This document shows positions 48,496 to 62,910 of a stretch of DNA of 64,000 nt, in pieces. The DNA is taken from assembly GCF_025685545.1 (NCBI RefSeq), contig NZ_JAGSYC010000021.1, positions 1 to 64,000 of the forward strand, in the 5' to 3' direction. A program made the translations under genes and the position numbers. Under the pieces are notes generated by a model. The model ran no database searches. It worked only from the letters and a program-made list of their open reading frames with translations, and was not told the origin of the DNA. The stretch comes from Granulicella paludicola. Lineage in GTDB: Bacteria; Acidobacteriota; Terriglobia; Terriglobales; Acidobacteriaceae. How positions within the stretch are numbered: the first letter of the stretch is position 1; the number at the start of each line of letters is the position of its first letter.

Positions 48496-48496
48496 C

Positions 48497-49054: not shown

Positions 49055-49391
49055 GTTAATTCCCCTTACGCGGCGGGCGTGCGGTAGCTCGTAATTTCAC
49101 ACTGACAGCTGGTGTGATCCATCTTTCGATGGAGACGTCATTTGAGAGGGGCTTCACTTGCCCTAAATCGCAAAACGCGACGCTAAGCGAAGTTGGGCCA
49201 ACAAGAGCACGTCATTCGCCAGGAAAGCCTCTTATCACGTAGTTGCTCTTGCGAGAGGGTAAGGAAATTTAATCTCTGAGGGGAAACGCGCTCCCATGCC
49301 GCGGCTCCATGGCTGGCACCTGGTTGCACGGTCAAAAGGACCTCTCAGGCTTGCCTGAGGGCTCACACTTTAGATAAGGAATCTCGGACAG
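49055..49391. other. Intergenic gap of about 340 bases between convergent genes
   Basis: Contains TCACACTGACAGCT (49097-49110), which can form a TCACAC/GTGTGA hairpin and recurs at 59442-59455 upstream of another TonB receptor. It also contains the terminator at 49334-49359. No gene is supported. Confidence 0.45.
49334..49359 (-). terminator. Intrinsic terminator after the carbonic anhydrase gene
   Basis: CTCAGGC-AA-GCCTGAG on the minus strand (49344-49359) is followed by AGGTCCTTTT. It lies 33 bases beyond the stop of the carbonic anhydrase gene. Confidence 0.6.
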
Positions 49392-49973
49392 TTAGCTCGC
49401 AGCACCAATCTTTGTGGCTTCTTCAACTTCGATGAGCCTGCCGGATTTTACGTCATAAACGTAGCCATAGATCGGAATAGATGCGGGGACGAGCGGATGC
49501 TTACGGATACGCTCAACGTCGTCGATCACAGCTTGCTTTTGGTCAGGGATCGTAAGGAACTCGACAAACTGGGCGGCCCGACTACCGGGTCCTTTGCCCA
49601 CGTCTCTAAAGCCTTCGGCTGTGAGTGCTGCGGTTTCAAGAGAACTGGCGAGGAGACCGCGGATGACATCATTAGTGAAGAACTCCATGCCACAATCCGT
49701 ATGGTGGATGACAAAGAACTCCTTAGTCCCGAGGAGCTTATAGCTGATGACGAGAGAGCGGATGGCATCATCCGAGGCACGACCGCCGGCGTTTCGTATG
49801 ACGTGTGCGTCGCCCTCTGCGAGCCCCGCATATTTGGCAGGGTCCAGACGCGCATCCATGCAGGTGAGAATGGCGAAGCCACGTGCGGGTGGAAGAGCGA
49901 GGCCGCCTTTGTCGCCAAAGGTATTTACGTACTGCTGATTGGAAGAGAGGATTTCCTTGAGGATTTTGCTCAT
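49392..49973 (-). CDS. Beta-class carbonic anhydrase
   Basis: The 193-residue zinc enzyme interconverts CO2 and bicarbonate. Zinc ligands C38 ([10 protein letters not shown]), H91 and C94 (HHTDCGM) and the D40-R42 dyad are present. It belongs to the short clade common in soil bacteria. It is the last gene of a five-gene minus-strand run (51591 to 49392) with gaps of 22-60 bases, an unusual partner for DUF6644 and DUF6152 proteins. Confidence 0.95.
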
Positions 49974-50000
49974 GATGAAGTTCCTTGAACTGCGCCTGCG

Positions 50001-50486
50001 TTAGTTGGAAGCGTCGGGATTGACAACGTGAATGGGGAGATCCCAGTGGTTGGTGGTCAACTCCCATCGGCGATTCTCTTCACGCTTGAAAGTGGCCTGG
50101 TCGGGGAAGAGTTGCTTTGCGACCTCAGCCTCAGATTGGCCAGGAGGTGCATCAGCGGAGGCGCGAATGATAATGATGCGGTAGTCCCAGCGGACTTCCT
50201 CGCTGGTGTGGAGGCTGGGTGCGTAGACGGTGAAATCCTTGACGTATCCAAGTTGTTTTTGCCGCTCGAGGATTGCGATCTGATACTTCTTGAAGAGTGC
50301 CCACCATTCATCTTTGAAACCGTATTTTGTGCGGTAAACCCACTCCTCGATCACGGGTTTAGTTGCCGGAGCCGCCGTCATCACCTGCTGAGCGGCGGTT
50401 GCCCGAGATGGCGTGATCAATGTAGCGAGTGAGAACAATGCAAGAACGAGACTATTTCGTACTGCGAATCGGATGTTGAAATTCAT
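50001..50486 (-). CDS. Secreted protein of unknown function
   Basis: The 161-residue product from ATG 50486 (preceded by AGGAG) begins MNFNIRFAVRNSLVLALFSL, a signal peptide cut near ATAAQQ. The mature part is a small soluble domain (EEWVYRTKYGFKDEWWALFK, RWDYRIIIIRASADA, RWELTTNHWDLPIH). The fold may be of the dimeric alpha-beta-barrel type, but that is a guess. It is in the same operon as the membrane proteins and the carbonic anhydrase. Confidence 0.75.
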   Translation of the reverse strand: MNFNIRFAVRNSLVLALFSLATLITPSRATAAQQVMTAAPATKPVIEEWVYRTKYGFKDEWWALFKKYQIAILERQKQLGYVKDFTVYAPSLHTSEEVRWDYRIIIIRASADAPPGQSEAEVAKQLFPDQATFKREENRRWELTTNHWDLPIHVVNPDASN

Positions 50487-50544
50487 CGAGAGTTCTCCTG
50501 GTGGGCAATTGCTTAGCTGCGAAGGTCTCATTGCGTTCCTTAAG

Positions 50545-51027
50545 TTAGATCAAACCAATAGCTCTACCTGCGACTCCGACGCCCAGCCAAAGTAGCATCG
50601 AGACAACGGCGACCGCTCTTTGAGCGAGCTCAGGAGGAGTATCTGTACCTGCGCGATTCAGAGCTCTACGGTGCAGCGTGAAATAGAAAAGGATTGAGCT
50701 GGCGAGAAGTGCCATCTTCCAACGGAACGCTGGGCTGAAGTAACACTTCATGGCTTCTTCCGAGAGAAGTCCGATGCCCGAAAGGATAAGGATCGTCAGG
50801 CTTACAAGCAAGACGCGGCCTAGATCATGGCCTATGTTCTTCGCCGACTCTCCTTTCAGGATCACGCCGAGAAGACGAAGGTCGATGAGCAGCACCGACC
50901 CGCCGAGCGCCGCAAGCGAGAGCAGGTGGACCATCTCGACGACTGCAAAGGCCCACCGACTCACCTGCATGAATTGACCGAGCGGTGACTGCGAAAGAGC
51001 AACGAATAGGTGGTGGGGAGATGGCAC
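50545..51027 (-). CDS. Four-span membrane protein, DUF6644-like (copy 2)
   Basis: The 160-residue protein has four membrane helices, with SRWAFAVVEMVHLLSLAALGGSVLLIDLRLLGV in the first pair and FSPAFRWKMALLASSILFYF in the third. The invariant-looking His and Arg residues could bind heme or a quinone. It is a paralogue of the next gene (shared E..H.L......G...L.DLR.LGV). Role unknown; the membrane location and redox-type neighbours suggest electron transfer or a sensor. Confidence 0.7.
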   Translation of the reverse strand: MPSPHHLFVALSQSPLGQFMQVSRWAFAVVEMVHLLSLAALGGSVLLIDLRLLGVILKGESAKNIGHDLGRVLLVSLTILILSGIGLLSEEAMKCYFSPAFRWKMALLASSILFYFTLHRRALNRAGTDTPPELAQRAVAVVSMLLWLGVGVAGRAIGLI

Positions 51028-51048
51028 GCTTTTCTTTCCTTGTGTGCG

Positions 51049-51546
51049 TTAGAAGTAAGCAATGGCCCGACCCGCTATGACGACGCAGCTCCACAGCGTA
51101 AGTGAGGCGATGGCCGCAGCCCGGGCGCGCCATGGCGAGCGATGCTCAAGCTCCCATTCGGATACGCGGCGATAGACTGACGTGTGAAAGATCAAAGGGT
51201 TCAGCCCGACGAGCAGCAGTAAGATGAGCTTCACGCGGAAGGCGGGGTTTACGTAGTTCTTTGCGGCTTCAGCCCAGAAGAGCAGTAGTCCACTGGAGAC
51301 CATGACGCCAAAGCCTGCCCAGGTGAGAGGAAAGACGGCGCGAGATAAACGTGTAACAGGAACCTCGCGAAGAACTACGCCGAGCATACGGAGATCAAGT
51401 AACGAAATGGTGCCGACAAGAAGCGTGATTGCCAAAACGTGGACCGATTCGATGATGGAGAAGGCATAGTCCGATTCGCGGATCGCGGTTCCGACCTGCG
51501 AATCGTAGATGACTTGGCAGAGATGTTGCAGGATAGGTTGGGTCAT
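51049..51546 (-). CDS. Four-span membrane protein, DUF6644-like (copy 1)
   Basis: The 165-residue protein has the same pattern as its neighbour: ESDYAFSIIESVHVLAITLL, GTISLLDLRMLGVVLREVPV, then NPAFRVKLILLLLVGLNPLIF. The His in the first helix, the DLRMLGV turn and the NPAFRVK start of helix 3 are shared. The tandem copies probably arose by duplication and may form a heterodimer. Confidence 0.7.
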   Translation of the reverse strand: MTQPILQHLCQVIYDSQVGTAIRESDYAFSIIESVHVLAITLLVGTISLLDLRMLGVVLREVPVTRLSRAVFPLTWAGFGVMVSSGLLLFWAEAAKNYVNPAFRVKLILLLLVGLNPLIFHTSVYRRVSEWELEHRSPWRARAAAIASLTLWSCVVIAGRAIAYF

Positions 51547-51590
51547 TGGGGAAGAGCCGGCACTTGTACAAGCGCCGGCCCTGGAACTCC

Positions 51591-52040
51591 TTAGCTCTTG
51601 CCCGTGCCTGAAAGATTGCCCTGTACGGTGCCGTTGTCTCCGGGACCGCCATCACCGGGGCTGCCACCATAAACCGAACGCCCGTCGGGCAGCGTCACAC
51701 GTCGCGCATCGACCAAGTGTGAACCGTCCTTGGCGCGGTAGCCATCCACAACGATCTGGTCGCCGATCTTGAGGTCGCCCTTCTTCCATCCACGACGGCT
51801 GAGGGCACCAGGACCTGCGCCTTCACATCCCCAGTTGATGAGCTTTCCGCTCTTTGGGTCTGTGACATCGACGTAGAAGTAAGAATGTGGGTTTGTCCAT
51901 TCCACACGCGTGATCTTGCCTACCAGCCGCGTGGGCTTGGTGCCATCGAATTCCGCGGCGAAGGAGTGATGCGCATAGGCAGGGACTGCCGCGATAGACG
52001 CCAGGACGAGGAGAGCTGATGCTGCGATTTTAGCTTTCAT
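51591..52040 (-). CDS. Secreted DUF6152-type protein
   Basis: The 149-residue product starts at ATG 52040 (AAAGGA upstream) with the signal MKAKIAASALLVLASIAAVP and the characteristic mature start AHHSFAAEFDGTKP, followed by VEWTNPHSYFYVDV and WGCEGAGPGALSRRGW. These proteins are common in acidobacteria and proteobacteria and are probably periplasmic OB-fold-like domains. It is the first gene of the operon and is preceded by a leader peptide and a strong terminator hairpin, so it is probably controlled by attenuation. Confidence 0.85.
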   Translation of the reverse strand: MKAKIAASALLVLASIAAVPAYAHHSFAAEFDGTKPTRLVGKITRVEWTNPHSYFYVDVTDPKSGKLINWGCEGAGPGALSRRGWKKGDLKIGDQIVVDGYRAKDGSHLVDARRVTLPDGRSVYGGSPGDGGPGDNGTVQGNLSGTGKS

Positions 52041-52103
52041 TCTGAATCCTTTTCGGTTTTGAGTTGAGATAAGCGGCAAGTCTTTGAATTGATCGCTCAT
52101 GCG

Positions 52104-52190
52104 AAATAAAAGACCCGCTCCATCAGGAGCGGGTCTTCGGTCTCGTAGGGTCTAGCTAATCAACGGTTTTGCTCTCATTCAGAGCAAAAC
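52104..52190 (-). promoter_or_regulatory. Attenuator: early hairpin plus intrinsic terminator in the 5' UTR
   Basis: Reading the minus strand, a 10-bp hairpin GTTTTGCTCT-GAATG-AGAGCAAAAC (52166-52190) begins six bases after the leader stop. An 11-bp GC-rich hairpin, AGACCCGCTCC-TGAT-GGAGCGGGTCT (52111-52136), follows and runs into TTTTATTT (52104-52110). The terminator stands 64 bases before the DUF6152 start, so most transcripts would stop unless it is bypassed. Confidence 0.7.
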
Positions 52191-52195
52191 AAGCA

Positions 52196-52273
52196 TCACA
52201 GCCGAACGCACGTCGAAGTCCACTCCACCGGGAAGGAACGACGACAACAGCGCGACGCTGTGAGCAAGAACAT
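52196..52273 (-). CDS. Cys-rich leader peptide L1 (upstream of the DUF6152 operon)
   Basis: A 25-residue frame starts at ATG 52273 and contains TASRCCRRSF (codons TGT TGT) and a further Cys near the end (STCVRL). The candidate -10 box ends seven bases before the A of the ATG, so the mRNA should start at or next to the start codon (a leaderless message). It stops just before the hairpin pair of the attenuator. Ribosome stalling at the Cys codons when Cys-tRNA is scarce would change folding downstream. Confidence 0.6.
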   Translation of the reverse strand: MFLLTASRCCRRSFPVEWTSTCVRL

Positions 52274-52279
52274 GGCTAA

Positions 52280-52308
52280 ACTTTAGGGAACAAGCTGCCA
52301 CATGTCAA
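52280..52308 (-). promoter_or_regulatory. Promoter for leader L1
   Basis: TTGACA (52303-52308), exactly 17 bp, then TAAAGT (52280-52285) on the minus strand. It is back to back with the plus-strand promoter at 52318-52346; the two -35 boxes are only 9 bp apart. Confidence 0.7.
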
Positions 52309-52317
52309 GAGGCAGAC

Positions 52318-52346
52318 TTGACGTAATTCGGATGTTCGTCTACTTT
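52318..52346 (+). promoter_or_regulatory. Promoter for leader L2
   Basis: TTGACG (52318-52323), 17 bp, TACTTT (52341-52346). The leader ATG begins seven bases after the -10 box. It is divergent from the L1 promoter. Confidence 0.65.
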
Positions 52347-52352
52347 CGCTCT

Positions 52353-52409
52353 ATGCCTAGCATTTTTACGATGCATTGTTCGCGCTGTTGTCGTTGCTCC
52401 TGCAACTGA
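52353..52409 (+). CDS. Cys-rich leader peptide L2 (upstream of the 52583 gene)
   Basis: This is an 18-residue frame, MPSIFTMHCSRCCRCSCN, with six Cys codons in its last ten residues. The SRCCR core is shared with the divergent leader L1. The start codon coincides with the expected transcription start, as in L1. It precedes a secreted-protein gene by 173 bases. Confidence 0.6.
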   Translation: MPSIFTMHCSRCCRCSCN

Positions 52410-52509
52410 GCACACTTGCGTGATCTGAGCCTGCAACCTCAGCGGGCCGGGCATATTCTTCCTAATCCAAAAGATACTTAGCCGTCGGTACTCCTGCGAT
52501 ATTGCAGCG

Positions 52510-52536
52510 ATGGACAGTTGCTATGTCCATTGTTTT
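52510..52536 (+). terminator. Weak hairpin with U-rich tail between leader L2 and its gene
   Basis: ATGGACA (52510-52516) pairs with TGTCCAT (52524-52530) around a 7-nt loop, followed by TGTTTTG. It could act as an attenuator, though it is AT-rich and short. Confidence 0.35.
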
Positions 52537-52582
52537 GCTAACAAGTCACAGCGCGTGCGTGTCGGAGAAATGGAGCACTCGT

Positions 52583-53494
52583 TTGAAGTTCAACCGTGTT
52601 AACGCTTCCTCTGTAATAGGAATTGCTGCCCTTGTGCTTATCTGGACCGCTAACACCTGCGCACAGGATGCCACGAAGCCAGTGGAAGACGCCACTGGGC
52701 GCGCTAACTCCCCTTTCTCTCGAAGTGAGTCTGAGCTGCCTAAGGGACCAGCTCCGCGGCTGGGCACGCATCCTGACCTATCCGGCTACTGGGTCCCTTC
52801 GCACGCTTCACAGGACAAGCCGATCGGCAATCTCGGCAAGGATTATCCGAAGTACAAATTGCCGTTCACACCTGCGGGAGAAGCAGCGCACAAATACAAC
52901 GTCGAGCATACGGTCGATCCTGAAGCCCTTTGCATCGTCGGTGGATTGCCGCGCCACAATGCGAGCGGTCTGCCCTTTCAGCTTCTTCAGGGAGAAGATC
53001 ACACCGTCTTTCTTTACTGGTACACCACTTATCGGCTAGTACCCGTCGATGGCCGCAAGCATGATCCCGATCCCGACCCGTCTTTCTTTGGCGAGGAGCT
53101 TGGGTCGTGGGACGGCGAGACGTTTGTGGTCGACTCCATCGGCTTCAAACAAGACCGCACCTGGGCCGACGAGAACGCCGATCCTCACAGCGATGCGCAG
53201 CATGTTATCGAGCGCTGGACGCGGCCCGACATTGGACATCTGCATCTCGAGATGACGGTGAATGATCCAAAGTTTTACACCGAGCCCGTTCACTATCAGC
53301 GCACCTGGTTGCTGGGTAAGCCAGGGGATGACGTACACGAATACTCCTGCGCCGAGGATAACGTCGATGCCCCACACCTCGGCCCAGGACCAGGCAAGAT
53401 CGCGCCGAACGGCGAACGTGGATTCGACAAGCTGACACCGCTGCCTCCACCGCCCACGAAGGACCACCCCGCTGTAACTTCGATCCCCGACTAA
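52583..53494 (+). CDS. Secreted protein of unknown function (acidobacterial type)
   Basis: A TTG at 52583, seven bases after GGAG, gives a roughly 303-residue product with the signal MKFNRVNASSVIGIAALVLI. In-frame ATGs at 52502 and 52523 are upstream but lack a good ribosome site and would spoil the signal peptide. The mature part contains HPDLSGYWVPSH, DPEALCIVGGLPRHNASGLP, WDGETFVVDSIGFKQDRTW and a final Pro-rich tail ending HPAVTSIPD. I recognise the LSGYW and WDGDTLVV-like pattern from secreted proteins abundant in acidobacteria, with no assigned function. The tail ending HPA(V/T)TSI is shared with the next gene. Confidence 0.8.
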   Translation: MKFNRVNASSVIGIAALVLIWTANTCAQDATKPVEDATGRANSPFSRSESELPKGPAPRLGTHPDLSGYWVPSHASQDKPIGNLGKDYPKYKLPFTPAGEAAHKYNVEHTVDPEALCIVGGLPRHNASGLPFQLLQGEDHTVFLYWYTTYRLVPVDGRKHDPDPDPSFFGEELGSWDGETFVVDSIGFKQDRTWADENADPHSDAQHVIERWTRPDIGHLHLEMTVNDPKFYTEPVHYQRTWLLGKPGDDVHEYSCAEDNVDAPHLGPGPGKIAPNGERGFDKLTPLPPPPTKDHPAVTSIPD

Positions 53495-53562
53495 TGTGAC
53501 CCAAGGAGGTGGCCGAGTGTTTGGTTTCTCGGTCACCTTTCTTCAAGAGGAAAGAGTACCGT

Positions 53563-54351
53563 ATGTGCATAGCAGCCAGTTTGAAAAAGATACTAGGGAC
53601 TTTGGCAATCGGAGTCCTGTGTGCGAGCGCTTATCCCTCACTGGCTCAGGCACACAGCAAGCCTAAGCCACCTAACGGAGTAGAAGAAGTGTGCTCCATC
53701 GCCTTCGATCAAGATGCGATTCGTCCTGCGCGTCTGGAGAATGGCGCGTTGCCCTGTCTGAAAGAGGCTGCCCGTAAGCTCAAGGAAAGAACGGATCGCA
53801 AGCTGGTACTCGTTGGGGTGAAAGATCCGTCGAAGGACCATGAACTGGCCGAGAACGGGTCGATGCGCGAAGAGGAAGACGCAACAGGTCTCGATGTTCG
53901 ACTCGAAGATCTGTCAGCCTATCGCGCGGTCAATACAAAGTGGTATCTCGTGCGGTACCTGGGCGTGGACCCAACGCGTGTCATACCAGTTACAGATGAA
54001 AGCTACTTCGCGCAGACGGTTACTGCCTATCTCGTGCCTGCTTCGGCAGACTATAACCATAACTTCCTGGGCGCAACGAAGACCAATGAGAAGCCCTGCA
54101 CGATCACACCTTGCTATTCTCCGGATGAAGAGACGCTGACTGCACAGCGACGCTCGCGCATTCCTGAGAACAGTGCTGGGCAGCCGTTGCCTGAGACGCA
54201 TGCTGATCAACTGGAGCTTGCAGCCCTGCAACGCCGTCGCGCAGCATCCGCGAAACAAACGGCTAAGGAGAAGAACAGCGAGCCGCCACTCACGCCTCTG
54301 CCCGCTCGCCCAACGCCTGAACATCCAGCAACAACGTCCATCATCCCCTAA
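53563..54351 (+). CDS. Secreted OmpA-like-domain protein (divergent)
   Basis: The 262-residue product (ATG 53563, preceded by AAGAGGAAAG) has the signal MCIAASLKKILGTLAIGVLC. A domain then follows reading CSIAFDQDAIRPARLENGALPCLKEAARKLKE, LVLVGVKD and AVNTKWYLVRYLGVDPTRVIP. This keeps the spacing of OmpA C-terminal peptidoglycan-binding domains (F..D, L...A..L, vG, R..n...yL....gi...ri) but without the usual Asp/Arg pair fully conserved. The C-terminus is Pro-rich and ends HPATTSIIP, like the upstream protein. It is probably co-transcribed with that gene. Confidence 0.7.
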   Translation: MCIAASLKKILGTLAIGVLCASAYPSLAQAHSKPKPPNGVEEVCSIAFDQDAIRPARLENGALPCLKEAARKLKERTDRKLVLVGVKDPSKDHELAENGSMREEEDATGLDVRLEDLSAYRAVNTKWYLVRYLGVDPTRVIPVTDESYFAQTVTAYLVPASADYNHNFLGATKTNEKPCTITPCYSPDEETLTAQRRSRIPENSAGQPLPETHADQLELAALQRRRAASAKQTAKEKNSEPPLTPLPARPTPEHPATTSIIP

Positions 54352-54363
54352 ACCGAATTGAAC

Positions 54364-54397
54364 TATGGGCGGAGACTTGAAATGGTCTCCGCCCATA
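54364..54397. terminator. Bidirectional terminator between convergent genes
   Basis: TATGGGCGGAGAC and GTCTCCGCCCATA form a 13-bp stem with an 8-nt loop between the OmpA-like gene and the DsbD-N-like gene. Confidence 0.75.
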
Positions 54398-54414
54398 TTC
54401 AGCTTTCGAGTTGG

Positions 54415-54903
54415 CTACTGGATCGGCGTTGACAGATGTACTGTACGGGGCGGCAAGCAGATGCTGTCATTGCAGGCCTGATAGCGCACGGCTATTGTGA
54501 TCGGCGATGCTGCGCTGTGGCCGGGTTTCAATCGCACTGGCACCAAAAGCGTGAAATCGCCGAGATAGAGTTCGGTCTCCATCTGAAAACTGGTGTCATT
54601 TCGCCGTGTAGGAGCCGTACCGCCGATTTTACCGGAGATCTCCGCCCGCCCTGCATCATCAAGCGTAACTCGAAGTGGTGTGGGACCACCTTCCGGTTCA
54701 TGTAGAGCGTACACGTGCCAGCCGGCAGAAAGAGTTCCGCTTACTTCCACGGAAACGGCATCACGTACTTTAGCCGGATCGGCCTTTGCTGGCGTGATTG
54801 TCCACTGTACAGGCTGTGGCGCAGGGCCTTGCGCAAGCACGAACGCAGTGCTCATAGAAACGACGAACAGAGTTACGATCTTGCATCTAGATGTAGGACT
54901 CAT
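54415..54903 (-). CDS. Periplasmic DsbD N-terminal-domain-like protein (PF11412 type)
   Basis: The 162-residue product has a signal peptide (MSPTSRCKIVTLFVVSMSTA) and an immunoglobulin-like domain matching DsbD-alpha: VSVEVSGTLSAGWHVYALHEPEGGPTPL and the redox pair in YQACNDSICLPP. In DsbD this domain passes electrons to periplasmic thiol proteins; here it stands alone without the membrane and thioredoxin domains. It overlaps the diheme cytochrome gene by four bases, fitting a cytochrome-maturation or thiol-reduction role. Confidence 0.8.
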   Translation of the reverse strand: MSPTSRCKIVTLFVVSMSTAFVLAQGPAPQPVQWTITPAKADPAKVRDAVSVEVSGTLSAGWHVYALHEPEGGPTPLRVTLDDAGRAEISGKIGGTAPTRRNDTSFQMETELYLGDFTLLVPVRLKPGHSAASPITIAVRYQACNDSICLPPRTVHLSTPIQ

Positions 54904-55337
54904 TTTGCCTTGCCTTCAAATGCAGGTGGGTGGGGAGTGCCGAGATGACAGTTGCCGCAGGTGATGGGATCGGCGTAGCGACGATCGCCGATCTGTGTGA
55001 GATATTTCTCGTTGATGTCGCGCGTCATGACCATCATGGAGCGCGCCAGTTCTTTCATCGGATTCTCATCGGAGGCGAAGTCGATCTTGCCGCCTTCCGC
55101 TTCCGCATGGCAGTAACCGCAGGGGACACCGAGTGAGCGTTGGTACTGCTGCATCAGGCGATTCAGTTCAGGCGCGGAGATGTCCTTTGGGAGCACCTTC
55201 AGATTGTGTGGAACAGCTTCTAGTGGTGCTGCCGGATTCTGTGCGCCATATACAACATGGATGGGATGTCTCAGTACCGCTGCGGAAGCGATTGCAAGAC
55301 ATCCCAGCAATGTGAATACAACGAGCTTACTCGGCAC
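54900..55337 (-). CDS. Small secreted diheme c-type cytochrome
   Basis: The 145-residue product has a signal peptide and two heme-binding motifs, CGYCH and CGNCH, in VPCGYCHAEAEGG and ITCGNCHLGTPHPP. The ENPMKELARSMMVMTRDIN helix between them matches the reaction-centre-cytochrome-like family common in acidobacteria and planctomycetes. It overlaps genes on both sides, so it is expressed with the CHRD and DsbD-N-like proteins. It is probably a periplasmic electron carrier. Confidence 0.88.
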   Translation of the reverse strand: MPSKLVVFTLLGCLAIASAAVLRHPIHVVYGAQNPAAPLEAVPHNLKVLPKDISAPELNRLMQQYQRSLGVPCGYCHAEAEGGKIDFASDENPMKELARSMMVMTRDINEKYLTQIGDRRYADPITCGNCHLGTPHPPAFEGKAK

Positions 55338-55767
55338 TCTTCACTACCTGACCGCGAACTTCACCACTGGGGGTTGCGCTGGTGTGGATGTTGAAGTACC
55401 ACTTGCCGTCTTCGAGGTCCTTCTCCTGTTCCGGCGTCAGTGTGGCGGTGCCTTCGATCGGAGTGGCGAGAGGGCTCGTCTTCACGGGAACGGTGGGACG
55501 AGCATTCGCTCCTGGAGCCGCAGGCCCGTGAAAGTGCGCGGCAACGGCAGGACCGGTGAGCCCGCTGTACTCGACGTGGTATCTGAACTCGTTGGTCGTC
55601 GTGTCGAGAGTGGCCGTAAGGGTACCGACGCCTGTCGTTTGGTTGGCAGGGACTTCAGTTGAGCCTTTGAGTTCTGCCTTAAAGTGCAGCACCTCAGCGT
55701 GTGCGGCGAAAGAGATCGCGAGCACAGCGCTCGACGCGATGGTGCGGAAGAGTGAATGAGCGGACAT
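55327..55767 (-). CDS. Secreted CHRD-domain protein
   Basis: The 146-residue product has a signal peptide (AISFAAHA) and a single CHRD domain: LKGSTEVPANQTTGVGTLTATLDTTTNEFRYHVEYSGLTG, AAHFHGPA and WYFNIHTSATPSGEVRGQV. CHRD domains are of unknown function and may bind metals through the conserved His residues. It overlaps the cytochrome gene by 11 bases. Confidence 0.9.
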   Translation of the reverse strand: MSAHSLFRTIASSAVLAISFAAHAEVLHFKAELKGSTEVPANQTTGVGTLTATLDTTTNEFRYHVEYSGLTGPAVAAHFHGPAAPGANARPTVPVKTSPLATPIEGTATLTPEQEKDLEDGKWYFNIHTSATPSGEVRGQVVKSAE

Positions 55768-55823
55768 GGGAATCTCCTGATGAAGGTCTTAGATTGACAA
55801 TACTTTTTGTAATGGTCCAGGAA

Positions 55824-55867
55824 GGGTAACCGACGAAAGCTGCTGCTAAACAGATTGCCGGTTACCC
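55824..55867. terminator. Long-arm inverted repeat between TlpA-like and CHRD genes
   Basis: GGGTAACCG (55824-55832) and CGGTTACCC (55859-55867) form a 9-bp stem with a 26-nt loop. No T-run follows, so it may be a weak terminator, an RNA-processing site or an operator. Confidence 0.4.
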
Positions 55868-55890
55868 CAGATTGATCGATCTACTGCAGG

Positions 55891-57258
55891 TTATTCGCCT
55901 GACTTGGCTGGATCCTTTGCAGGGGTGATGAGGTTCACTGCGGCAGCCTTCTTGGGCGTTTCGGAGAGGAGCTGCTCGATCTGAGCCGTGAACTCCTTTT
56001 CCAGGTCCGCATTGAACTGGCCGCTGGCAGGTGAAGCGAAGCCCGAATGCGTAGCGCGCACGCGGCCGTCGCGGCCCACGAAGACAGTTGCCGGCCAGGT
56101 GTTGAGGTTTACCAACTGAGGCACCTTCTCCCACATATCGGAGGGAGCGCCTGCGATGAGGTAGGTGTAGTTCACGCCGTACTGCTTCACGAAGGCCTTC
56201 TCACGCTCGAGGCTGCCTTGCTGCTCCGGCTCCTCAAAGTCGAGGGCAACGATGGCAAGACCCTTGTCGCGGTACTTCTTGTCGAGCTGTACAAGGTACT
56301 GCGCCTCATCGTGGCAGTTTGGGCACCAGGTGCCAGTCACGATCGCGAGAACGACCTTGCCCTTGAATCGGGGATCGTCGCTCGATACAAGTTTGCCATC
56401 GACATCGGGAAATTTGAAAGCGAAGGGCTCATTCGGGTCGCGCACAGTTGTGTGCGTACGGTAGTCCTCTGGTTGAGGAAGTCCCTTAGCCTCAGCGACC
56501 TCAGAGCGATAGGCGACCAACTTTTCAGAATAACGACTGTCGGCTTCTTCCTGACCGTAGGAGGAATCTGTTTTCTTCGCGACATTCGGTTTGGCGCTCA
56601 GCTGTAAAACCTGCAGAGTGCCATCCGGGTTTGAGGAGACTTCGATGACGCCAGGACGTGAACCGTCATAGTGGCTCAACACCCACTTGCCGTCATGAAA
56701 CGTTCCGCTGTAGGCACCGGTGTCTCCATCTACGCGCAGGATCGAAGCAGCCACTTCTGTTCCATGCTGCTCCACGATGAAGCGAAATGCCTTCTCTCCC
56801 TTGGCGGTAGGGTGATCGAGCGGAATGATCCATGAGCCCGCGATAGACGGAGCCTTCAACTCAACGTCCTTCGACTCCACATGGCGTGTTGCCGAAAAGC
56901 CGTAAGCGGAGTTGGCGGAACGAGACTGATAATTTACGTTGCCGACAAGTTTGCCGTCCTGCAGAGTGGCGTTGATTGTCGTGAGGTAGTGTTCTATGTT
57001 CAGCGTGAGCTTCCCGTCCTGGAAGGTCGCATCCGTGGTGCCGTCGTAAGGCTTGAAGCCGTTGTAGAGCACGCCATGAAGTGTCGGGCCATTGCCGACA
57101 ATATCAAGACGGAATGGGACGGTGAGACCGTCGTGGGTGAGTGCTGCATCCCAGCGTCCGTCGACCGCTGTTGCGGGAGTCGATTGCGCGAGTGCAGCGC
57201 CAGCAAAGATCGCTGAACTCAGGAGTGTAAAGCCCGTGTTGCGTAAGAAGCCTCTCAT
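55891..57258 (-). CDS. TlpA-type thiol-disulfide oxidoreductase with long N-terminal domain
   Basis: The 455-residue secreted protein has an Ala-rich signal (SSAIFAGAALA) and an N-terminal beta-rich domain of about 230 residues. A C-terminal thioredoxin/redoxin domain follows (about 285-430) with the active site GTWCPNCHDEAQYLVQL and the cis-Pro segment NLNTWPATVFVG. TlpA-like proteins reduce periplasmic disulfides, for example in apocytochromes and Cu centres. It lies 37 bases after the cytochrome-like gene and just before the CHRD/cytochrome/DsbD-N-like genes. Confidence 0.88.
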   Translation of the reverse strand: MRGFLRNTGFTLLSSAIFAGAALAQSTPATAVDGRWDAALTHDGLTVPFRLDIVGNGPTLHGVLYNGFKPYDGTTDATFQDGKLTLNIEHYLTTINATLQDGKLVGNVNYQSRSANSAYGFSATRHVESKDVELKAPSIAGSWIIPLDHPTAKGEKAFRFIVEQHGTEVAASILRVDGDTGAYSGTFHDGKWVLSHYDGSRPGVIEVSSNPDGTLQVLQLSAKPNVAKKTDSSYGQEEADSRYSEKLVAYRSEVAEAKGLPQPEDYRTHTTVRDPNEPFAFKFPDVDGKLVSSDDPRFKGKVVLAIVTGTWCPNCHDEAQYLVQLDKKYRDKGLAIVALDFEEPEQQGSLEREKAFVKQYGVNYTYLIAGAPSDMWEKVPQLVNLNTWPATVFVGRDGRVRATHSGFASPASGQFNADLEKEFTAQIEQLLSETPKKAAAVNLITPAKDPAKSGE

Positions 57259-57295
57259 GATGCTTTCCTTTCAGGTACGTTTGAGACGTTGGCGC

Positions 57296-58756
57296 TTACC
57301 CGCGGGGAATTTGCCCGAGGTGCGACTGCGCAAGGTGAACGCGGAGATGGTTGGTCTTCGCGTAGGTCTTCCATTCCTCTGGCAGACTAGGCTTGGTCGC
57401 GAGGAGAATCTCAAGGATGTTGCTGCGGTCCTGCTCGGTGAGCGCCGCAAAATCGGCACTGGTGTCCTGGCCAGTAAGCACCGCAAGCAAACGATGGTAG
57501 ATGTATCCCTTGGCTGGCTCCGGGATGTTATCGAAGGCGTCCGAGTAGATGAGATAACTGCAGGGGTAACGGAAGATGCGATGGTGCAGGTCGAAATCTC
57601 GCAAGGAACGGCCGTGGCCGTCACGAGCTGCGTGCGCTGAAAATTCATGCGCGAATGCAGAATTGGTGTCGAAGGAAGCACTCTCCGCGGAGAGCGATGC
57701 CTCCTTTGCGAAGAGCAGATACCGAAGTAACTGCTCGGCGGGCCGCTGGAACTGTTCGCGATCTTCGTCGGTCAACTGCACGGCATTCGGGTCCGTCGCG
57801 TTTTGGCGTTTTGCTGCTTTATAGAGAGCAATGCGGGTGCGGTAATTCGTCAGGGTGATGAGGTTATGCATCTGGGTCTGGTGCGCCAACACCAAATGCG
57901 CGACCACATCACTTTCGTCGGAGAGATAGCTGGCATGATTGAAGGTGCCGAGGGCAAGCCTGGTCAAGTTGACGGATGTCGCACCCGGTTCGGTAGTGCT
58001 GGTCGCGGTTTGCTGTACTACGGCATTCGCCATGCCCGTGGCAGGCTGCTTCACACCCGTCAGGTACCATCCGCCCCAGCGTTCTGAGAGTGGACTTTCT
58101 TGATCGGTGATCGAGGTGCGTGAGTTCAGCGCCTGCGTCCCTGTCTCGGTGGGATAGATGGAGCGCAGCAGCACTCCAGGCACACCGCGGGTGCCAGCGG
58201 CTATATGGCATTGCGTGCAATCGAGCTCTGCGCGCTGAAACGCCGGATGCTCAACCTTGCTTTCATCGAGCAGATAGAAGATGGCGCCCTGCACAGGATC
58301 AAAGGAGACGATCTCGATTGCCTTGCCGTCATGGACCTTCCCGACATAGACGTCATCGTTGAAGTACAGCGCACGTGGATGCTCAGGAGAGATCTTCTTG
58401 TATTGAAAGCTTGTCTTGGAGAAAACGAGCGTCTGCGATTCCACAGGCACCTTCAGTTCCTTGAGCACAGACTTCAAGTATCCAAACTGGGGATCGTATG
58501 AAAGCTTGGCCTTACCTTCATTCAACCTTTGCTGGAGCAGCGCTACGGGGTCATGGAGATCTTCGGACCGGTAGTTGATCGGAGCATCGCTGAATGGCAC
58601 ATAGCCCTGGTTGCGCACGGCTATCTGAGCTGCTGCGTGCCAGGCCACCCATCCGCCAGATACAGCGGAGCCAAGCAGAAGGCAGAGGGCAGCAGAAAGC
58701 CTCTTGCGGTGTGCCCACGTTCGCTGCGCATCGCGATTTAGAAAGGAGTTCTTCAT
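57296..58756 (-). CDS. Secreted monoheme cytochrome-type protein of unknown function
   Basis: From ATG 58756 the 486-residue product has an N-terminal membrane or signal segment (LSAALCLLLGSAVSGGWVAW) and one heme motif, CTQCH, in AELDCTQCHIAAGTRGVPG. Conserved phrases such as PINYRSEDLHDPVALLQQRL, LYFNDDVYVGKVHDGKAIE and RYPCSYLIYSDAFDNIPEPA match a family seen in acidobacteria and proteobacteria near redox genes. It is the first gene of an operon preceded by leader L3 and a terminator. ATGs at 58774 and 58789 are alternative starts. Confidence 0.75.
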   Translation of the reverse strand: MKNSFLNRDAQRTWAHRKRLSAALCLLLGSAVSGGWVAWHAAAQIAVRNQGYVPFSDAPINYRSEDLHDPVALLQQRLNEGKAKLSYDPQFGYLKSVLKELKVPVESQTLVFSKTSFQYKKISPEHPRALYFNDDVYVGKVHDGKAIEIVSFDPVQGAIFYLLDESKVEHPAFQRAELDCTQCHIAAGTRGVPGVLLRSIYPTETGTQALNSRTSITDQESPLSERWGGWYLTGVKQPATGMANAVVQQTATSTTEPGATSVNLTRLALGTFNHASYLSDESDVVAHLVLAHQTQMHNLITLTNYRTRIALYKAAKRQNATDPNAVQLTDEDREQFQRPAEQLLRYLLFAKEASLSAESASFDTNSAFAHEFSAHAARDGHGRSLRDFDLHHRIFRYPCSYLIYSDAFDNIPEPAKGYIYHRLLAVLTGQDTSADFAALTEQDRSNILEILLATKPSLPEEWKTYAKTNHLRVHLAQSHLGQIPRG

Positions 58757-58860
58757 CGTCTTATCCCATTCCATTGGGTTGTAGAGCACGTTTGCATAGA
58801 AGCCATTGGCAAACTGAGTGTCTGGAGGCTGGATTTGCGTGTCAGGAAGAAAACGCCAGC

Positions 58861-58943
58861 AAAAGGAAAAGCCCGCTCAAGCCAAATTGGCGAGCGGGCG
58901 ATGTTTACCGGTTCTTACCGATAGCTGTTCTTAGAAAGAACAG
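58861..58943 (-). promoter_or_regulatory. Attenuator: early hairpin plus intrinsic terminator before the cytochrome operon
   Basis: On the minus strand, CTGTTCTT-TCT-AAGAACAG (58925-58943) overlaps the leader stop. A terminator stem GCCCGCTC/GAGCGGGC (58871-58899, with an inner GCCA/TGGC) then runs into TTTTCCTTTT (58861-58870). It lies about 105 bases before the first gene, the same layout as at 52104-52190. Confidence 0.7.
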
Positions 58944-59014
58944 AGAGACACGACCCCGCGTCCGCCAGCGATGATGTGCTGGGAACAACAAAAGAGGCTT
59001 GAGCTGCGCGTCAT
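58931..59014 (-). CDS. Cys-rich leader peptide L3 (upstream of the cytochrome/TlpA operon)
   Basis: A 27-residue frame from ATG 59014 contains SSLFCCSQH (TGT TGT) and a Cys near the end (VSLCSF). The A of the ATG is eight bases after the -10 box, again implying a leaderless mRNA; a second in-frame ATG at 59020 is too close to the -10 box. It stops within the first hairpin of the attenuator. Confidence 0.6.
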   Translation of the reverse strand: MTRSSSLFCCSQHIIAGGRGVVSLCSF

Positions 59015-59021
59015 AGGCATA

Positions 59022-59050
59022 AATGTATCCATGTTCCTTCCAGATGTCAA
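59022..59050 (-). promoter_or_regulatory. Promoter for leader L3
   Basis: TTGACA (59045-59050), exactly 17 bp, TACATT (59022-59027) on the minus strand. The box sequence and spacing nearly match the L1 promoter. Confidence 0.7.
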
Positions 59051-59177
59051 CACGCTCTTGAAATTTTGACTTGATATCCAGAAGGAAATCGCAAGAGGTC
59101 GAAGCGGAATATCGTTGGCATCCTGCGAACGCTGACTGTAGCCAAAAGACTTAGCTACGCGGTTAGGTCAACTGTGC

Positions 59178-59264
59178 TACAGTTCCTCTATGCGACCACA
59201 GGCCACATCTATCTTGTATCTCGAAGGCGGATGTGTATGCGTGTCGGCTCGATGTCTCTGTTGA
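59178..59264 (+). CDS. Cys-rich leader peptide L4 (upstream of the second TonB receptor)
   Basis: The frame runs from ATG 59190 to the stop at 59264; the interval given also includes the -10-like TACAGT at 59178-59183, which ends seven bases before the ATG, as for the other leaders. It encodes 24 residues, with five Cys codons in the last ten (CVCVSARCLC). No good -35 is visible. The TonB receptor starts 267 bases downstream, and a CCCCG/CGGGG hairpin (59503-59516) stands directly before its ribosome site. Confidence 0.5.
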   Translation, partial: YSSSMRPQATSILYLEGGCVCVSARCLC

Positions 59265-59502
59265 TTCATTCCTGAGCATCCTCTGCTTTGTGGATCTCAT
59301 GCTGTGCGCATTCTGCAGGCAATTCGCATATCTACTGCAAACCCTCTGCAATCGCTTGTGCCGTCTCATGCGGCCTTCGTTGTTGCAATGTCCTGAACAG
59401 GTAGTCACCTGCTCTGGAATTCACCAGGCCGCGCGTCTTTCTCACACTGACAGCTAGCAATGATCGTCTGGCCAAGGGTTGGAAAGAGCGCATCTATCTC
59501 GT

Positions 59503-59516
59503 CCCCGTCAGCGGGG
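59503..59516 (+). promoter_or_regulatory. GC-rich hairpin before the receptor ribosome-binding site
   Basis: CCCCG-TCAG-CGGGG lies immediately upstream of AAGGA and the ATG at 59532. It is stable enough to affect initiation or transcript decay. No T-run follows. Confidence 0.4.
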
Positions 59517-59531
59517 TTCAAGGAACATCTC

Positions 59532-62500
59532 ATGCCCAAAATATTTCGTCGAATCTTTCCGATTGCACTGCTTCTCCTTGTAAGTGCTTTGAATGCGATC
59601 CCTCTTAACGCGCAGACATTCCGAGGCGGCATTGCTGGCACGGTGCAGGATCCTTCGGGTGCTTCTGTGCCGAACGCCAAAATCACGTTGCTGGAGCAGC
59701 AGACAGGACTCACGCGCGAAACCACTGCTACGGCGAATGGCACTTACGCGTTTCAGGACCTCCCTCTGGGGCAGTACACCGTCACGATCGACGCTGCCGG
59801 CTTCTCCCAGTCGAAGATCAAAAACATCACCACACGTCCCGGCGAGGTCTACTCGCTGAGCCCCAGACTCGGCCTTGCTGGCTCAAGCATGAGCCTGGAT
59901 GTCAATGCGAACGCACTCTCGCTGGATACGGAGAGTTCTACGAATACCGCAGTAGTCAGCGACAAAGCCGTTGCAAATGTGCCTCTAAATGGGCGTGACT
60001 TCCGCACGCTGCTCAACATCGTTCCTGGCTACAACGGGGCGGGTTCATTGAATGGCGCTCGCGCAAACCAGAACAACTACCAGATCGACGGCGCGGACAA
60101 CAATGACATCTGGCAGAACGGCGCAGCCGCCAATCAGGGTGGTGTGGGCAACATCGCTGGAGTCACCATCCCACTGGATGCGATTGACCAATTCAGCGTG
60201 CAATCGCAGGGCAATGCGGAGATCGGTCGTAATGGCGGCGGCCTCGTATCCATGGCCATCAAGAGCGGAACGAACGCGATTCATGGCTCTGCTTACTACT
60301 ACAACCGCAACGAATTCTTCGCGGCGCGCAATCCCTTCCTGCCCAGCACCACGCGCAAAGGAGCGCTGCGTAACCAGCAGTTCGGCGGATCTTTCGGCGG
60401 TCCCATCATTAAGAACCACCTCTTCTACTTCGTAAACTATGAACGGCAGCAGTACACCATCCAGAACGCAGCTCTTGCCGTTGAGCCCACTGCTCCGTAC
60501 ATCGCAGCAGCGACAAACTTGCTTACAGCTCATGGCATCACTGTCAGCCAGCTTTCGAAGAACTTGCTCGTGCTCTGGCCCGATGCAAATGGCCCTGGAG
60601 CGGTAAACGCATCTGGCAACTACTACGACCCCACACCGCAGCATGGTTACAGTGACAATGCTATCGGCAAGATGGACTGGCAGATCTCCGATCGTCAGTC
60701 GCTTTCTGTGCGTGCCTTCATCGGTACGGGTCGCCAGTTCGCGGCGGTCGGCACCAACGTCTACGACTACTACCAGGTGGCTCCGGACATCACGCAGAAC
60801 TTCACCGCTGCGCATAACTACATCATCACACCGCACCTCAGCAATCAGCTTGTGGCCGGTGTCGGTGTCTTCAACCAGACCTTCAACGATGCAAACCACA
60901 GCTTCGACTTGCCGGCGTTAGGTCTCGCCGACGGTGTCACGAACCCCTCACTGTTCGGTGCCCCCACGATCACGATCAGCGGTGGACTCGACGTTACCGG
61001 AGAGACTCAACCCCTCGGTCGCAAAGACTACACTGGCCACCTTACCGATACCGCGACATGGGTCGTCGGAAAGCACCAGTTCCGCTTCGGTGGCGAGTTC
61101 CGCCGGAATTATATGGACTTGCAGTATCAGCGCAACGTTCGCGGCACCTTCACCTTCAATGGCACGGCGTCATCGAGTGTCACTCTGCCCGCAGGCGCAA
61201 CACCATACTCCACGGATAGCACATACGGCGGCAGCGACGTCCGTTCGCTTGCCGACTATCTCGCAGGCTACGTCGCCAGCTCCACGTTTACTCAGGGCTA
61301 TCTGCGCCGCAGCATCTACGAGAACACATACGCGCTCTTTGGCTCTGACGTCTTCAATTTGACCAACAAGTTCACGCTGAACTACGGTGTGCGCTACGAA
61401 TACAACGGCCCCTTCAACTCCACCGGCACACTCTCTGATTTCCGCCCCGGCAACTCGCAGGCAGACGCCTTCGGTCTCGTGCAGCCGGGTAAGGGGATCA
61501 GCGGCATCTATCCCGGCGATTATGCCAACTTCGCTCCGCGCGTCGGGTTCGCATATCAAGCGGCACCGAAGCTCGCTATCCGTGGCACATACGGCATCTT
61601 CTTCGACGCCATCAACTTCAATGGCTTCTTTGACAACCGTCCAGGCAATGGCGCTGCTGCGGGCGTGCAGGCGAACCCAACCGGCACAACTCCAGTTCAA
61701 ACCCTCACCTCCACGTTCTATGGTTGGCAGGTCGGCGTAAATCCTTTCGCTGGCGCGAGCACGCCTGCAGTGCTTGGTCTCGCGACCGTCGCTCCGAGCT
61801 TCCGCACGGCGTATATCCAGAACATCAACGCCAACATCGAGTATCAGCTCGGCAAGAACACGATCGCTCAGATCGGATATGTGGGCTCTGAAGGTCGCCG
61901 GCTTTTCCAGCTCGTCGATATCAACCAGGCCACGCTCAGCGCTACCGGCACGACCACAACGGCCAATGTGCAAACGCGCCGCCCGTATTACTCAGCGACG
62001 AACATCACCAACGCGAAGATCATCGCCGCGATCAACCAGATTCAAAGCGAAGGCACCTCCAACTACAACGGCCTCATCGCTACAATCCGCACCTCAAACT
62101 TCCATGGGTTGTCAGGACAGGCCTCGTGGACCTACGGCCACGCGCTCGATATCGTATCTGGCACACGCGGCTTCGCTCCGCAGAACTCTTTCAACACCGC
62201 TGGCGAGTATGGCAATTCAGACTTCGACGTCCGTCACACCGTCAGCGGCTACGTCGTGTACGAGTTTCCTCGCTTCACCGCCTTCGTTCCGCGTCTGACG
62301 CAGGGATGGCAGGTGAATGGCTTCGTGAGTGCATATACGGGTACGCCGTTCTCCGTGAAGTCAGGCATCGACAACAGCCGTACTGGCGAAAATCAGGACA
62401 GAGCCAATCAGGTAGCGGCGCCTGCCGCAGGCATTGCGCGTACGTTGGTGCGCGCTAGTACATCGGCAACGCCCTACTACACGTGGGACAACCCGACGTC

Positions 62501-62801
62501 CTGGGCGCAGAATACGGCCAACACCTTCGGTACCTCAGCGCGCAACGCGTACCGTGGGCCGGGATTTGCAACCGTGGATACGTCTCTTGTGAAAAACACG
62601 CCGATCTATGGGCGCGTTGACTTCCAATTCCGCGCTGAACTGTTCAACATCTTCAACCGCACCAATCTTGCTAATCCAAGTGCGACATTGAGCAGCTCAT
62701 CCTTCGGTCGGATCTCGTCCACGCGTAATGCGGGTGGAGCGCCGGGCATCGGCTCCGGCGAGCCCTTCAACGTGCAGCTTGCTGGAAAGATCATCTTCTA
62801 A
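59532..62801 (+). CDS. TonB-dependent outer-membrane receptor with Cna-B-like N-terminal domain
   Basis: The 1089-residue receptor starts at ATG 59532 after AAGGA with the signal MPKIFRRIFPIALLLLVSAL. A Cna-B-like domain (about 30-115, FRGGIAGTVQDPSGASVPNA) is followed by a plug with VPLNGRDFRTLLNIVPG, QIDGADNNDIWQNG and SMAIKSGTNAIHGSAYYYNRN, and a large barrel ending NVQLAGKIIF. It belongs to the Oar-like class of presumed polymer or large-ligand importers. Expression may depend on leader L4. A strong terminator follows. Confidence 0.94.
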   Translation: MPKIFRRIFPIALLLLVSALNAIPLNAQTFRGGIAGTVQDPSGASVPNAKITLLEQQTGLTRETTATANGTYAFQDLPLGQYTVTIDAAGFSQSKIKNITTRPGEVYSLSPRLGLAGSSMSLDVNANALSLDTESSTNTAVVSDKAVANVPLNGRDFRTLLNIVPGYNGAGSLNGARANQNNYQIDGADNNDIWQNGAAANQGGVGNIAGVTIPLDAIDQFSVQSQGNAEIGRNGGGLVSMAIKSGTNAIHGSAYYYNRNEFFAARNPFLPSTTRKGALRNQQFGGSFGGPIIKNHLFYFVNYERQQYTIQNAALAVEPTAPYIAAATNLLTAHGITVSQLSKNLLVLWPDANGPGAVNASGNYYDPTPQHGYSDNAIGKMDWQISDRQSLSVRAFIGTGRQFAAVGTNVYDYYQVAPDITQNFTAAHNYIITPHLSNQLVAGVGVFNQTFNDANHSFDLPALGLADGVTNPSLFGAPTITISGGLDVTGETQPLGRKDYTGHLTDTATWVVGKHQFRFGGEFRRNYMDLQYQRNVRGTFTFNGTASSSVTLPAGATPYSTDSTYGGSDVRSLADYLAGYVASSTFTQGYLRRSIYENTYALFGSDVFNLTNKFTLNYGVRYEYNGPFNSTGTLSDFRPGNSQADAFGLVQPGKGISGIYPGDYANFAPRVGFAYQAAPKLAIRGTYGIFFDAINFNGFFDNRPGNGAAAGVQANPTGTTPVQTLTSTFYGWQVGVNPFAGASTPAVLGLATVAPSFRTAYIQNINANIEYQLGKNTIAQIGYVGSEGRRLFQLVDINQATLSATGTTTTANVQTRRPYYSATNITNAKIIAAINQIQSEGTSNYNGLIATIRTSNFHGLSGQASWTYGHALDIVSGTRGFAPQNSFNTAGEYGNSDFDVRHTVSGYVVYEFPRFTAFVPRLTQGWQVNGFVSAYTGTPFSVKSGIDNSRTGENQDRANQVAAPAAGIARTLVRASTSATPYYTWDNPTSWAQNTANTFGTSARNAYRGPGFATVDTSLVKNTPIYGRVDFQFRAELFNIFNRTNLANPSATLSSSSFGRISSTRNAGGAPGIGSGEPFNVQLAGKIIF

Positions 62802-62822
62802 AAGAAGGCTGTCATCATCACG

Positions 62823-62860: not shown

Positions 62861-62863
62861 GAA

Positions 62864-62881: not shown

Positions 62882-62910
62882 AAAGAAACCTGTGAGACGT
62901 TTTGTTTAGA

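Follow-up and report, generated by a model that had tools for sequence, protein, structure and literature searches.

Short reading frames rich in cysteine codons, placed directly behind promoters in the acidobacterium Granulicella paludicola, probably act as leader peptides in a cysteine-responsive attenuation system that works on mostly leaderless mRNAs, with an intrinsic terminator as the output at two of the transcription units described here. These units lie in a stretch of 64,000 nt, referred to as the window (positions 1 to 64,000 of contig NZ_JAGSYC010000021.1, assembly GCF_025685545.1). Its four frames, named by start position and strand (52273-, 52353+, 59014- and 59190+), precede a DUF6152 unit, a unit that opens with a protein of an unnamed family (the 52502-type), a cytochrome operon and a TonB-dependent receptor-like gene (Table 1). 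The occurrence of such Cys frames is real and extends far beyond the window, through a family of soil Acidobacteria.

Each frame, with 59190+ doubtful, would form the 5' end of an mRNA and be translated, leaderless, into a leader peptide. A shortage of charged Cys-tRNA would make the ribosome stall on the TGT/TGC codons and leave the RNA past them free to pair with the 5' arm of the terminator, allowing transcription to enter the genes. With ample cysteine, the ribosome would reach the stop codon and cover the antiterminator segment, the terminator would form and transcription would end. At 52353+, sensing would proceed alike, and the output may involve Rho or a masked ribosome binding site. 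At the level of sequence, promoter, leader, terminator and a matched candidate antiterminator are shown for the leaders of a siroheme reductase gene compared across the family, and the DUF6152 and cytochrome units fit the same arrangement; leaderless translation, the start sites, stalling at low Cys-tRNA, read-through and the response to cysteine are what we infer from it.

Table 1. Features of the window, in order of position
Position	Strand	Feature	Remark
49392..52040	-	Unit probably controlled by leader 52273- (operon inferred from spacing)	DUF6152 first
49392-49973	-	Beta-carbonic-anhydrase family protein	Within DUF6152 unit behind Cys leader
52102..52137	-	Intrinsic terminator (hairpin of 12 bp at 52110-52137 plus U-tract)	Follows leader 52273-, before DUF6152
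52196..52273	-	Cys leader peptide MFLLTASRCCRRSFPVEWTSTCVRL, predicted leaderless	Frame and promoter pattern
52219..52227	-	Possible antiterminator segment, -13.6 kcal/mol with terminator 5' arm	Matched by 9.6% of shuffles
52280..52308	-	Promoter TTGACA-17-TAAAGT, 6 nt to ATG	Serves frame 52273-
52318..52346	+	Promoter TTGACG-17-TACTTT, 6 nt to ATG	Serves frame 52353+
52353..52409	+	Cys leader peptide MPSIFTMHCSRCCRCSCN, predicted leaderless	Frame and promoter pattern
52502..54351	+	HPDLSGYW-type protein of unnamed family and second ORF, both exported-looking by eye	Behind 52353+
54415..58789	-	Unit probably controlled by leader 59014- (operon inferred from spacing)	Cytochrome operon
58861..58899	-	Intrinsic terminator (hairpin at 58871-58899 plus U-rich tail)	Follows leader 59014-, before cytochrome operon
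58931..59014	-	Cys leader peptide MTRSSSLFCCSQHIIAGGRGVVSLCSF, predicted leaderless	Frame and promoter pattern
58954..58967	-	Possible antiterminator segment, -17.0 kcal/mol with terminator 5' arm	Matched by 2.4% of shuffles
59022..59050	-	Promoter TTGACA-17-TACATT, 7 nt to ATG	Serves frame 59014-
59190..59264	+	Cys-rich frame MRPQATSILYLEGGCVCVSARCLC, least supported of the four	-10 TACAGT (59178-59183), 6 nt to ATG
59532..62801	+	TonB-dependent receptor-like outer membrane protein	Gene behind frame 59190+

Cysteine leaders in the window, the genome and the phylum

The preliminary description of this DNA had reported the four frames, with TTGACA or TTGACG exactly 17 bp from the -10 box at three of them. 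All four are found where they were placed and the spacing is confirmed; the fourth frame, 59190+, has a -10 box alone, with no -35 upstream of its TACAGT as read from the sequence. Adjacent cysteines (CC) are present in three of the four leaders and missing from 59190+, a weakly supported frame that would not stand out if taken alone. The Cys codons of the window leaders comprise 11 TGT and 4 TGC. A promoter scan of positions 47000-64000 returned three sites (mean of 8.1 in shuffles), two of which are the promoters of 52273- and 59014-. Rfam, applied to the whole window at the gathering score, gave one tRNA as its sole match and no leader element.

Beyond the window, the pattern TTGAC N18 TAnnnT N6-7 ATG, which sets no condition on cysteine, was searched with its reversed form as control. 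Frames of at most 50 aa were counted as short. The 4.96-Mb genome of G. paludicola holds 13 pattern sites and one control site. Nine of the 13 open short frames, seven of them with CC or at least three Cys; the remaining short frames are one with 2 Cys in 12 residues and one of 4 aa without Cys. With the 2-Cys frame included, eight short Cys-rich frames are counted, three being the window's own, and the other five sites are four long genes and the 4-aa frame. Relaxing the -35 to TTGA added three own-genome sites. Relaxed spacings added six: four long frames, two of which resemble Fur- and TetR-type regulators by eye, a 41-aa frame with 3 Cys including CC (L046), and an apparent histidine leader. 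This last site, L047 (C21:415626-415665, +), has a promoter-like site 8 nt before the histidine-leader-like frame MSTLRHHHGHHHHHANNASAAVSGVAK.

The same search in 13 genomes of five genera gave 59 pattern sites and seven control sites. Among the 25 short frames opened there, 16 are Cys-rich (13 of 22 without the three window frames), whereas among short antisense frames that lack a promoter, taken from elsewhere, 49 of 620 are (Fisher p=2e-11 for 16/25). The proposal of a family of Cys-codon leaders, apparently leaderless and set before several transcription units, is supported. Most of the 34 long or unfinished pattern frames in these genomes resemble real genes by eye, which suggests that leaderless starts are in use here. 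The promoter spacing of the leaderless type is also kept, in several genomes of the genus (L036, L131, L132, L141, L145, L150, L153), by a gene whose product has 182-183 aa and 8 Cys (MLITPxQLVDEPLKLDE...). Sensing of serine or arginine through SRCCR was considered and rejected: TCN-CGN-TGY-TGY-CGN occurs at 22 sites in the own genome and 10 in the control, and those in short frames with a promoter-like start are two window leaders and, doubtfully, L010 (MLYSVSGPHGGPRSSRCCRC).

The link to sulfur, inferred in the preliminary description, is strengthened by the genes that follow leaders of the same type. In the own genome, MKLSPIAACCPLLSHRACCAAY precedes a siroheme nitrite/sulfite reductase gene and two siroheme-type genes; the divergent pair MHKQFKQSLCAC / MFASCKLTGCCSSQ lies before a 52502 paralogue (74% identical) and an NIL-domain (MetN-like) ABC transporter gene followed by a permease/NlpA fusion; and MAFPLVPCCRCDHSLLG precedes a cysteine-dioxygenase/rhodanese protein. 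CysD, above the NCBIfam cut-off, stands behind Cys leaders at L236, L255 and, in the 13-genome set, at L146 from another family of the order, and is taken as a firm sulfur target of acidobacterial leaders. Another own-genome leader, MRFIPSPYCCSSCVSAGVREYRAQTCSM, precedes a TlpA-like paralogue, and the targets in the 13 genomes include three recognised by eye: L168 encodes a peroxiredoxin, L159 a CHRD protein, and L160 is of the 52502 type. CHRD, TlpA-like, TonB-type and DUF6152 genes are likewise found behind Cys leaders. Leaderless-type Cys leaders before peroxiredoxin-like genes (by eye) were seen at L284 and L290 in Acidobacteria as well as at L168, which belongs to another family of the same order.

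A scan of GTDB genomes extended the comparison to 119 stretches among the matches listed, with taxon labels assigned by hand. Among these matches, the CCC run lies in frame within a short frame in 43 of 44 cases in records labelled Acidobacteria (or Candidatus Sulfotelmatobacter) and in 15 of 79 in others. Some leaders outside the Acidobacteria look real: among the matches listed, a CCC leader precedes CysH in Anaerolineaceae (L220), others precede a cysteine-synthase-like gene, below cut-off, in Bacteroidetes (L213) and cysteinyl-tRNA synthetase (CysS) in a proteobacterium (L249), and two Eremiobacterota records (L198, L300) have related leaders before related genes by eye. CysH and CysS count, like CysD, as firm sulfur targets. 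At these five loci and at L277, in-frame CCC leaders outside the Acidobacteria keep the same promoter spacing.

Siroheme reductase leaders and their terminators

The main comparative gene, a siroheme reductase (NIR_SIR by Pfam), is present in 74 of 120 family genomes. Of its 78 places, 70 were examined, the other eight being contig ends, partial or second copies. In these 70 regions, 41 sense short frames pass the promoter rule, and 40 of them, in 40 regions, are Cys-rich; on the antisense strand three frames pass, one of which is Cys-rich. With nine further regions the total is 79, of which 60 contain TTGAC/TAnnnT promoters, 61 in all. At 60 of the 61, a first Cys-rich start follows the end of the -10 box by 0-14 nt, and in 38 by 6 or 7 nt, so that most siroheme reductase leaders appear leaderless as judged from promoter spacing. 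Cys makes up 21.9% of the residues in 59 leaders of 16-35 codons, and the TGT:TGC ratio is 214:112 in these leaders versus 25:342 in the genes that follow them (p=1e-64). At eight siroheme reductase loci from more distant families of the phylum (L186-L193), no Cys-rich frame passes the promoter rule; Cys-rich frames that fail it occur at L187, L191 and L193.

By a fixed rule, a terminator stands between leader stop and gene start at 35 of 40 siroheme reductase leaders, as against 1.7 in dinucleotide shuffles and 4 on the reverse strand; the five leaders that fail the rule have longer branched stems with T-tracts by eye. In the window, the terminator before DUF6152 reads AAGACCCGCTCC-TGAT-GGAGCGGGTCTT-TTATTT (rule score 41, folding z -7.0), and that before the cytochrome operon GCCCGCTCGCC...GAGCGGGC-TTTTCCTT (rule score 36, folding z -4.9). 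Among the other 11 pattern-derived leaders, four have a terminator by the rule (L032-, L026, L146, L168). In the relatives G031 and G095, two of eight leaders pass, both of them cytochrome ones, and the DUF6152-side leaders show by eye a stem with a poor T-tract.

Antiterminator pairing was measured by folding the leader RNA past the first Cys pair against the terminator 5' arm. Leader tails paired with their own arms reach a mean of -10.5 kcal/mol, as against -9.2 over every combination of tail and arm (n=35, permutation p=0.0008), and this advantage holds when each genus is represented by a single sequence (n=21, p=0.002). Compared with shuffled leader tails, 25 of 35 beat the mean, 15 of them by more than one standard deviation. 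In a group of tails reading STGAGRLLT or alike, CTGGCG..GGG can pair with CCCACCGCCAG directly past the Cys run. When 17 leader tails within this group are aligned, a CTGGCG/CGCCAG pair proves conserved but varies little, and the alignment was for that reason not used as evidence of covariation. The candidate segments of the window, TGGAGTGGA for 52273- and TGGCGGACGCGGGG for 59014-, lie about five codons past the CC pair.

Conservation, objections and other explanations

The 52502-type and cytochrome genes are rare, each occurring in three of 120 family genomes, the own genome included. The other two genomes hold three 52502-type copies between them; two of these, L121 and L123, each stand in the divergent pair with NCCR on one side, RCCN on the other and the promoter spacing kept. 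The cytochrome operon leaders at L125 and L126 read MNKGCCSIHN.. and MSKGCCSIYN.. and are followed by terminators. Among the GTDB matches listed, a DUF6152/52502-type pair with CCC leaders on both sides recurs at L265, L274 and L315 (Terriglobus albidus DSM 26559), with the same promoter spacing on both sides as in the window; DUF6152 was identified by Pfam at L265 and L274, and the rest of these three pairs by eye. Upstream Cys codons are thus kept in orthologues of three frames (the 52502/DUF6152 pair and the cytochrome operon), which does not hold for the TonB frame 59190+.

Several results weigh against attenuation as a general account of these frames. The search pattern was modelled on three of the window frames. 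By the rule, nine of the 25 short frames in the 13 genomes fall outside the Cys-rich class, eight without a single Cys, and 30 of the 70 siroheme reductase regions fail the strict promoter rule. Not all leaders are leaderless, because some siroheme reductase leaders begin 9-14 nt past the -10 box, where they probably carry a few bases of 5' leader, and one (L053) has by eye a Shine-Dalgarno-like stretch. In relatives, the third 52502-type copy (L120) has no leader, and the cytochrome leaders at L125 and L126 have no TAnnnT box at 6-7 nt. The two nearest TonB homologues (57 and 56% identical) have no Cys leader; at 29 others, a CCC frame stands behind a TAnnnT box in three and most have no leader, two more loci having 3 Cys without CC. 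Frame 59190+ consequently remains unconfirmed, although other TonB-type genes do follow CCC leaders (L243 by Pfam, L270 by eye).

Objections also concern output and target. Neither 52353+ nor 59190+ has a convincing terminator; both have weak hairpins alone (rule scores 25 and 23), for which passing the rule means little, since a rule-passing hairpin arises in 6-12% of shuffles of each of the four window regions. No rule terminator occurs at seven of the 11 other pattern-derived Cys leaders (L032+, L034, L035, L134, L158, L159, L160; imperfect by eye at L034), and none was detected for the L121 and L123 frames. Ten of the 35 leader tails pair no better than shuffles. The antiterminator p-values in the window are 0.096 for 52273-, not significant alone, and 0.024 for 59014-, and in the same comparison 52353+ has no antiterminator segment (p=0.46). 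Finally, the nearest models and structure of the main comparative gene are nitrite reductases: the best NCBIfam matches, none of which reaches its cut-off, are to NirA-family and ferredoxin-nitrite reductase models, and among solved structures Mycobacterium tuberculosis NirA comes nearest (1zj8, E=5e-89), deposited as a probable nitrite reductase. Because of these matches, its label was weakened from sulfite reductase to NirA/SirA-type siroheme reductase. The M. tuberculosis NirA of 1zj8 has reportedly been shown to be a sulfite reductase, and a role of the acidobacterial enzyme in reducing sulfite is proposed.

The explanation that survives best beside terminator-based attenuation keeps cysteine sensing and changes its output, which at 52353+, and at 59190+ if that frame is real, would be translational or Rho-dependent, as described for mycobacteria. 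The chances of this are evenly balanced. A convincing terminator is lacking at both frames and none is detected at L032+, L035, L158, L159 and L160, while Cys codons still precede most 52502 relatives (L121, L123, L265, L274, L315); at the DUF6152, cytochrome and siroheme reductase units, however, terminators are clear.

It is far less probable that the frames encode functional Cys-rich micropeptides, which would bind metals or thiols or sense metal as nascent peptides, rather than report on Cys-tRNA. Cys pairs and triplets are indeed the most conserved residues, and TlpA-like, cytochrome and TonB-type genes are neighbours. Yet the codon choice is shifted to TGT, which a peptide function would not need, the length and non-Cys residues vary widely among the 59 leaders, and terminator and antiterminator segments follow downstream. 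CysD is among the targets, as are CysH and cysteinyl-tRNA synthetase in other phyla, and no NCBIfam model matched any of the ten leaders searched. The functional-peptide explanation was rejected on the TGT shift, the variable peptides, the downstream terminators and the sulfur targets. Chance, by which GC-rich DNA would yield TGY-rich frames beside coincidental promoter boxes, would explain the roughly 8% of antisense promoter-less short frames that are Cys-rich and the unremarkable, non-conserved 59190+, but it is negligible in view of the pattern, promoter and Cys enrichments in the own genome, the 13 genomes, the siroheme reductase regions and the GTDB matches listed, and for the other three frames, taken together, the statistics have already refuted it. 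The earlier interpretation of the frames as cysteine-sensing leaders is largely right for these three and weak for 59190+, which has no -35, no terminator and nearest homologues without a leader.

Genes behind the leaders and known systems

The DUF6152 unit comprises DUF6152, two membrane-protein-like ORFs, one exported-looking ORF (by eye) and the beta-carbonic-anhydrase family protein. The nearest solved structures to the latter are carbonic anhydrases (5ztp, 1e-41), with the carbonyl sulfide (COS) hydrolase 3vqj at 1e-29; it also matches CS2 hydrolase structures. On the other side of the divergent promoters, the HPDLSGYW-type ORF occupies 52502-53494 (+), with an uncertain start. Neither it nor its paralogue L037:10514-11509 (-) matches a Pfam family, and the window copy matches no NCBIfam family either. 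Paralogues of 52502 (LPKGPxPRLGxHPDLSGYW), exported-looking by eye, repeatedly adjoin DUF6152 behind Cys leaders. HPDLSGYW-type proteins are a candidate new family tied to sulfur shortage. The cytochrome operon encodes a cytochrome-like protein (CxxCH by eye), which matched no Pfam family, together with TlpA/redoxin-like, CHRD, CytoC_RC and DsbD_N proteins.

The target genes of the window are not themselves known as Cys supply genes. A guess is that the exported redox, DUF6152 and TonB-type targets scavenge organic or volatile sulfur. This guess gains a little from the beta-carbonic-anhydrase family protein in the DUF6152 unit, whose matches to COS and CS2 hydrolases point to COS as a possible sulfur source.

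A wider proposal is put forward tentatively, its probability falling somewhat short of even. In Acidobacteriota, the ribosome on leaderless polycysteine frames may be a main sensor of sulfur status. One protein-free regulon may join the assimilation of sulfate to a so far unrecognised set of exported proteins that scavenge sulfur, its terminator output setting it apart from the mycobacterial one; the same solution may have arisen repeatedly in other phyla, before CysH, a cysteine-synthase-like enzyme and cysteinyl-tRNA synthetase. If true, the scavenging system would take in DUF6152, the HPDLSGYW family, CHRD and TlpA-like proteins, cytochromes and some TonB-type receptors, with the carbonic anhydrase of the window, related to COS hydrolase, as a possible further member. 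The leaders themselves define a predicted cysteine regulon from sequence alone and tie families of unknown function (DUF6152, HPDLSGYW type) to cysteine shortage, so that these become testable.

Attenuators of the trp/his type combine a run of codons for one amino acid, an antiterminator segment and an intrinsic terminator before genes for that amino acid. The acidobacterial leaders resemble them in the order of codon run, candidate antiterminator, terminator and genes. They differ in the leaderless start predicted for most, in the amino acid being cysteine, in the many units per genome and in several targets that are not biosynthetic genes.

Closer relatives in kind come from mycobacteria, in which Canestrari et al. 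2020 (Mol Microbiol 114:93-108) reportedly described polycysteine-encoding leaderless short ORFs whose output is said to work by masking of the ribosome binding site. The available parts of PMC9031893 and PMC13236596 present such ORFs with a translational output, and the system is also cited in the part available of PMC9094748. Among the matches listed from the open-licence papers of PubMed Central, no description of acidobacterial cysteine leaders was found, in keeping with the preliminary description, which knew of none in this phylum; the kind itself is known from mycobacteria. An acidobacterial cysteine regulon with terminator output and these targets thus appears undescribed. Premature terminators before genes, Acidobacteria included, were predicted by Naville and Gautheret 2010 (PMC2965389), where the accessible text does not mention a cysteine leader; the present analysis would supply a predicted trigger and function for attenuators in a phylum in which, by that text, almost none had one.

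Both systems have short frames with contiguous Cys codons before genes of Cys metabolism, several per genome; these are described as leaderless in mycobacteria and predicted to be so for most acidobacterial leaders. Unlike the translational mycobacterial output, the acidobacterial siroheme reductase leaders have an intrinsic terminator (35 of 40 tested) with a matched candidate antiterminator segment. The acidobacterial leaders also belong to another phylum, their targets include DUF6152, CHRD, TlpA-like and cytochrome units, and the likeness drawn here is one of features. A leaderless polycysteine sensor would here be joined to a non-mycobacterial output, which bears on how often ribosome-sensed regulons arise.

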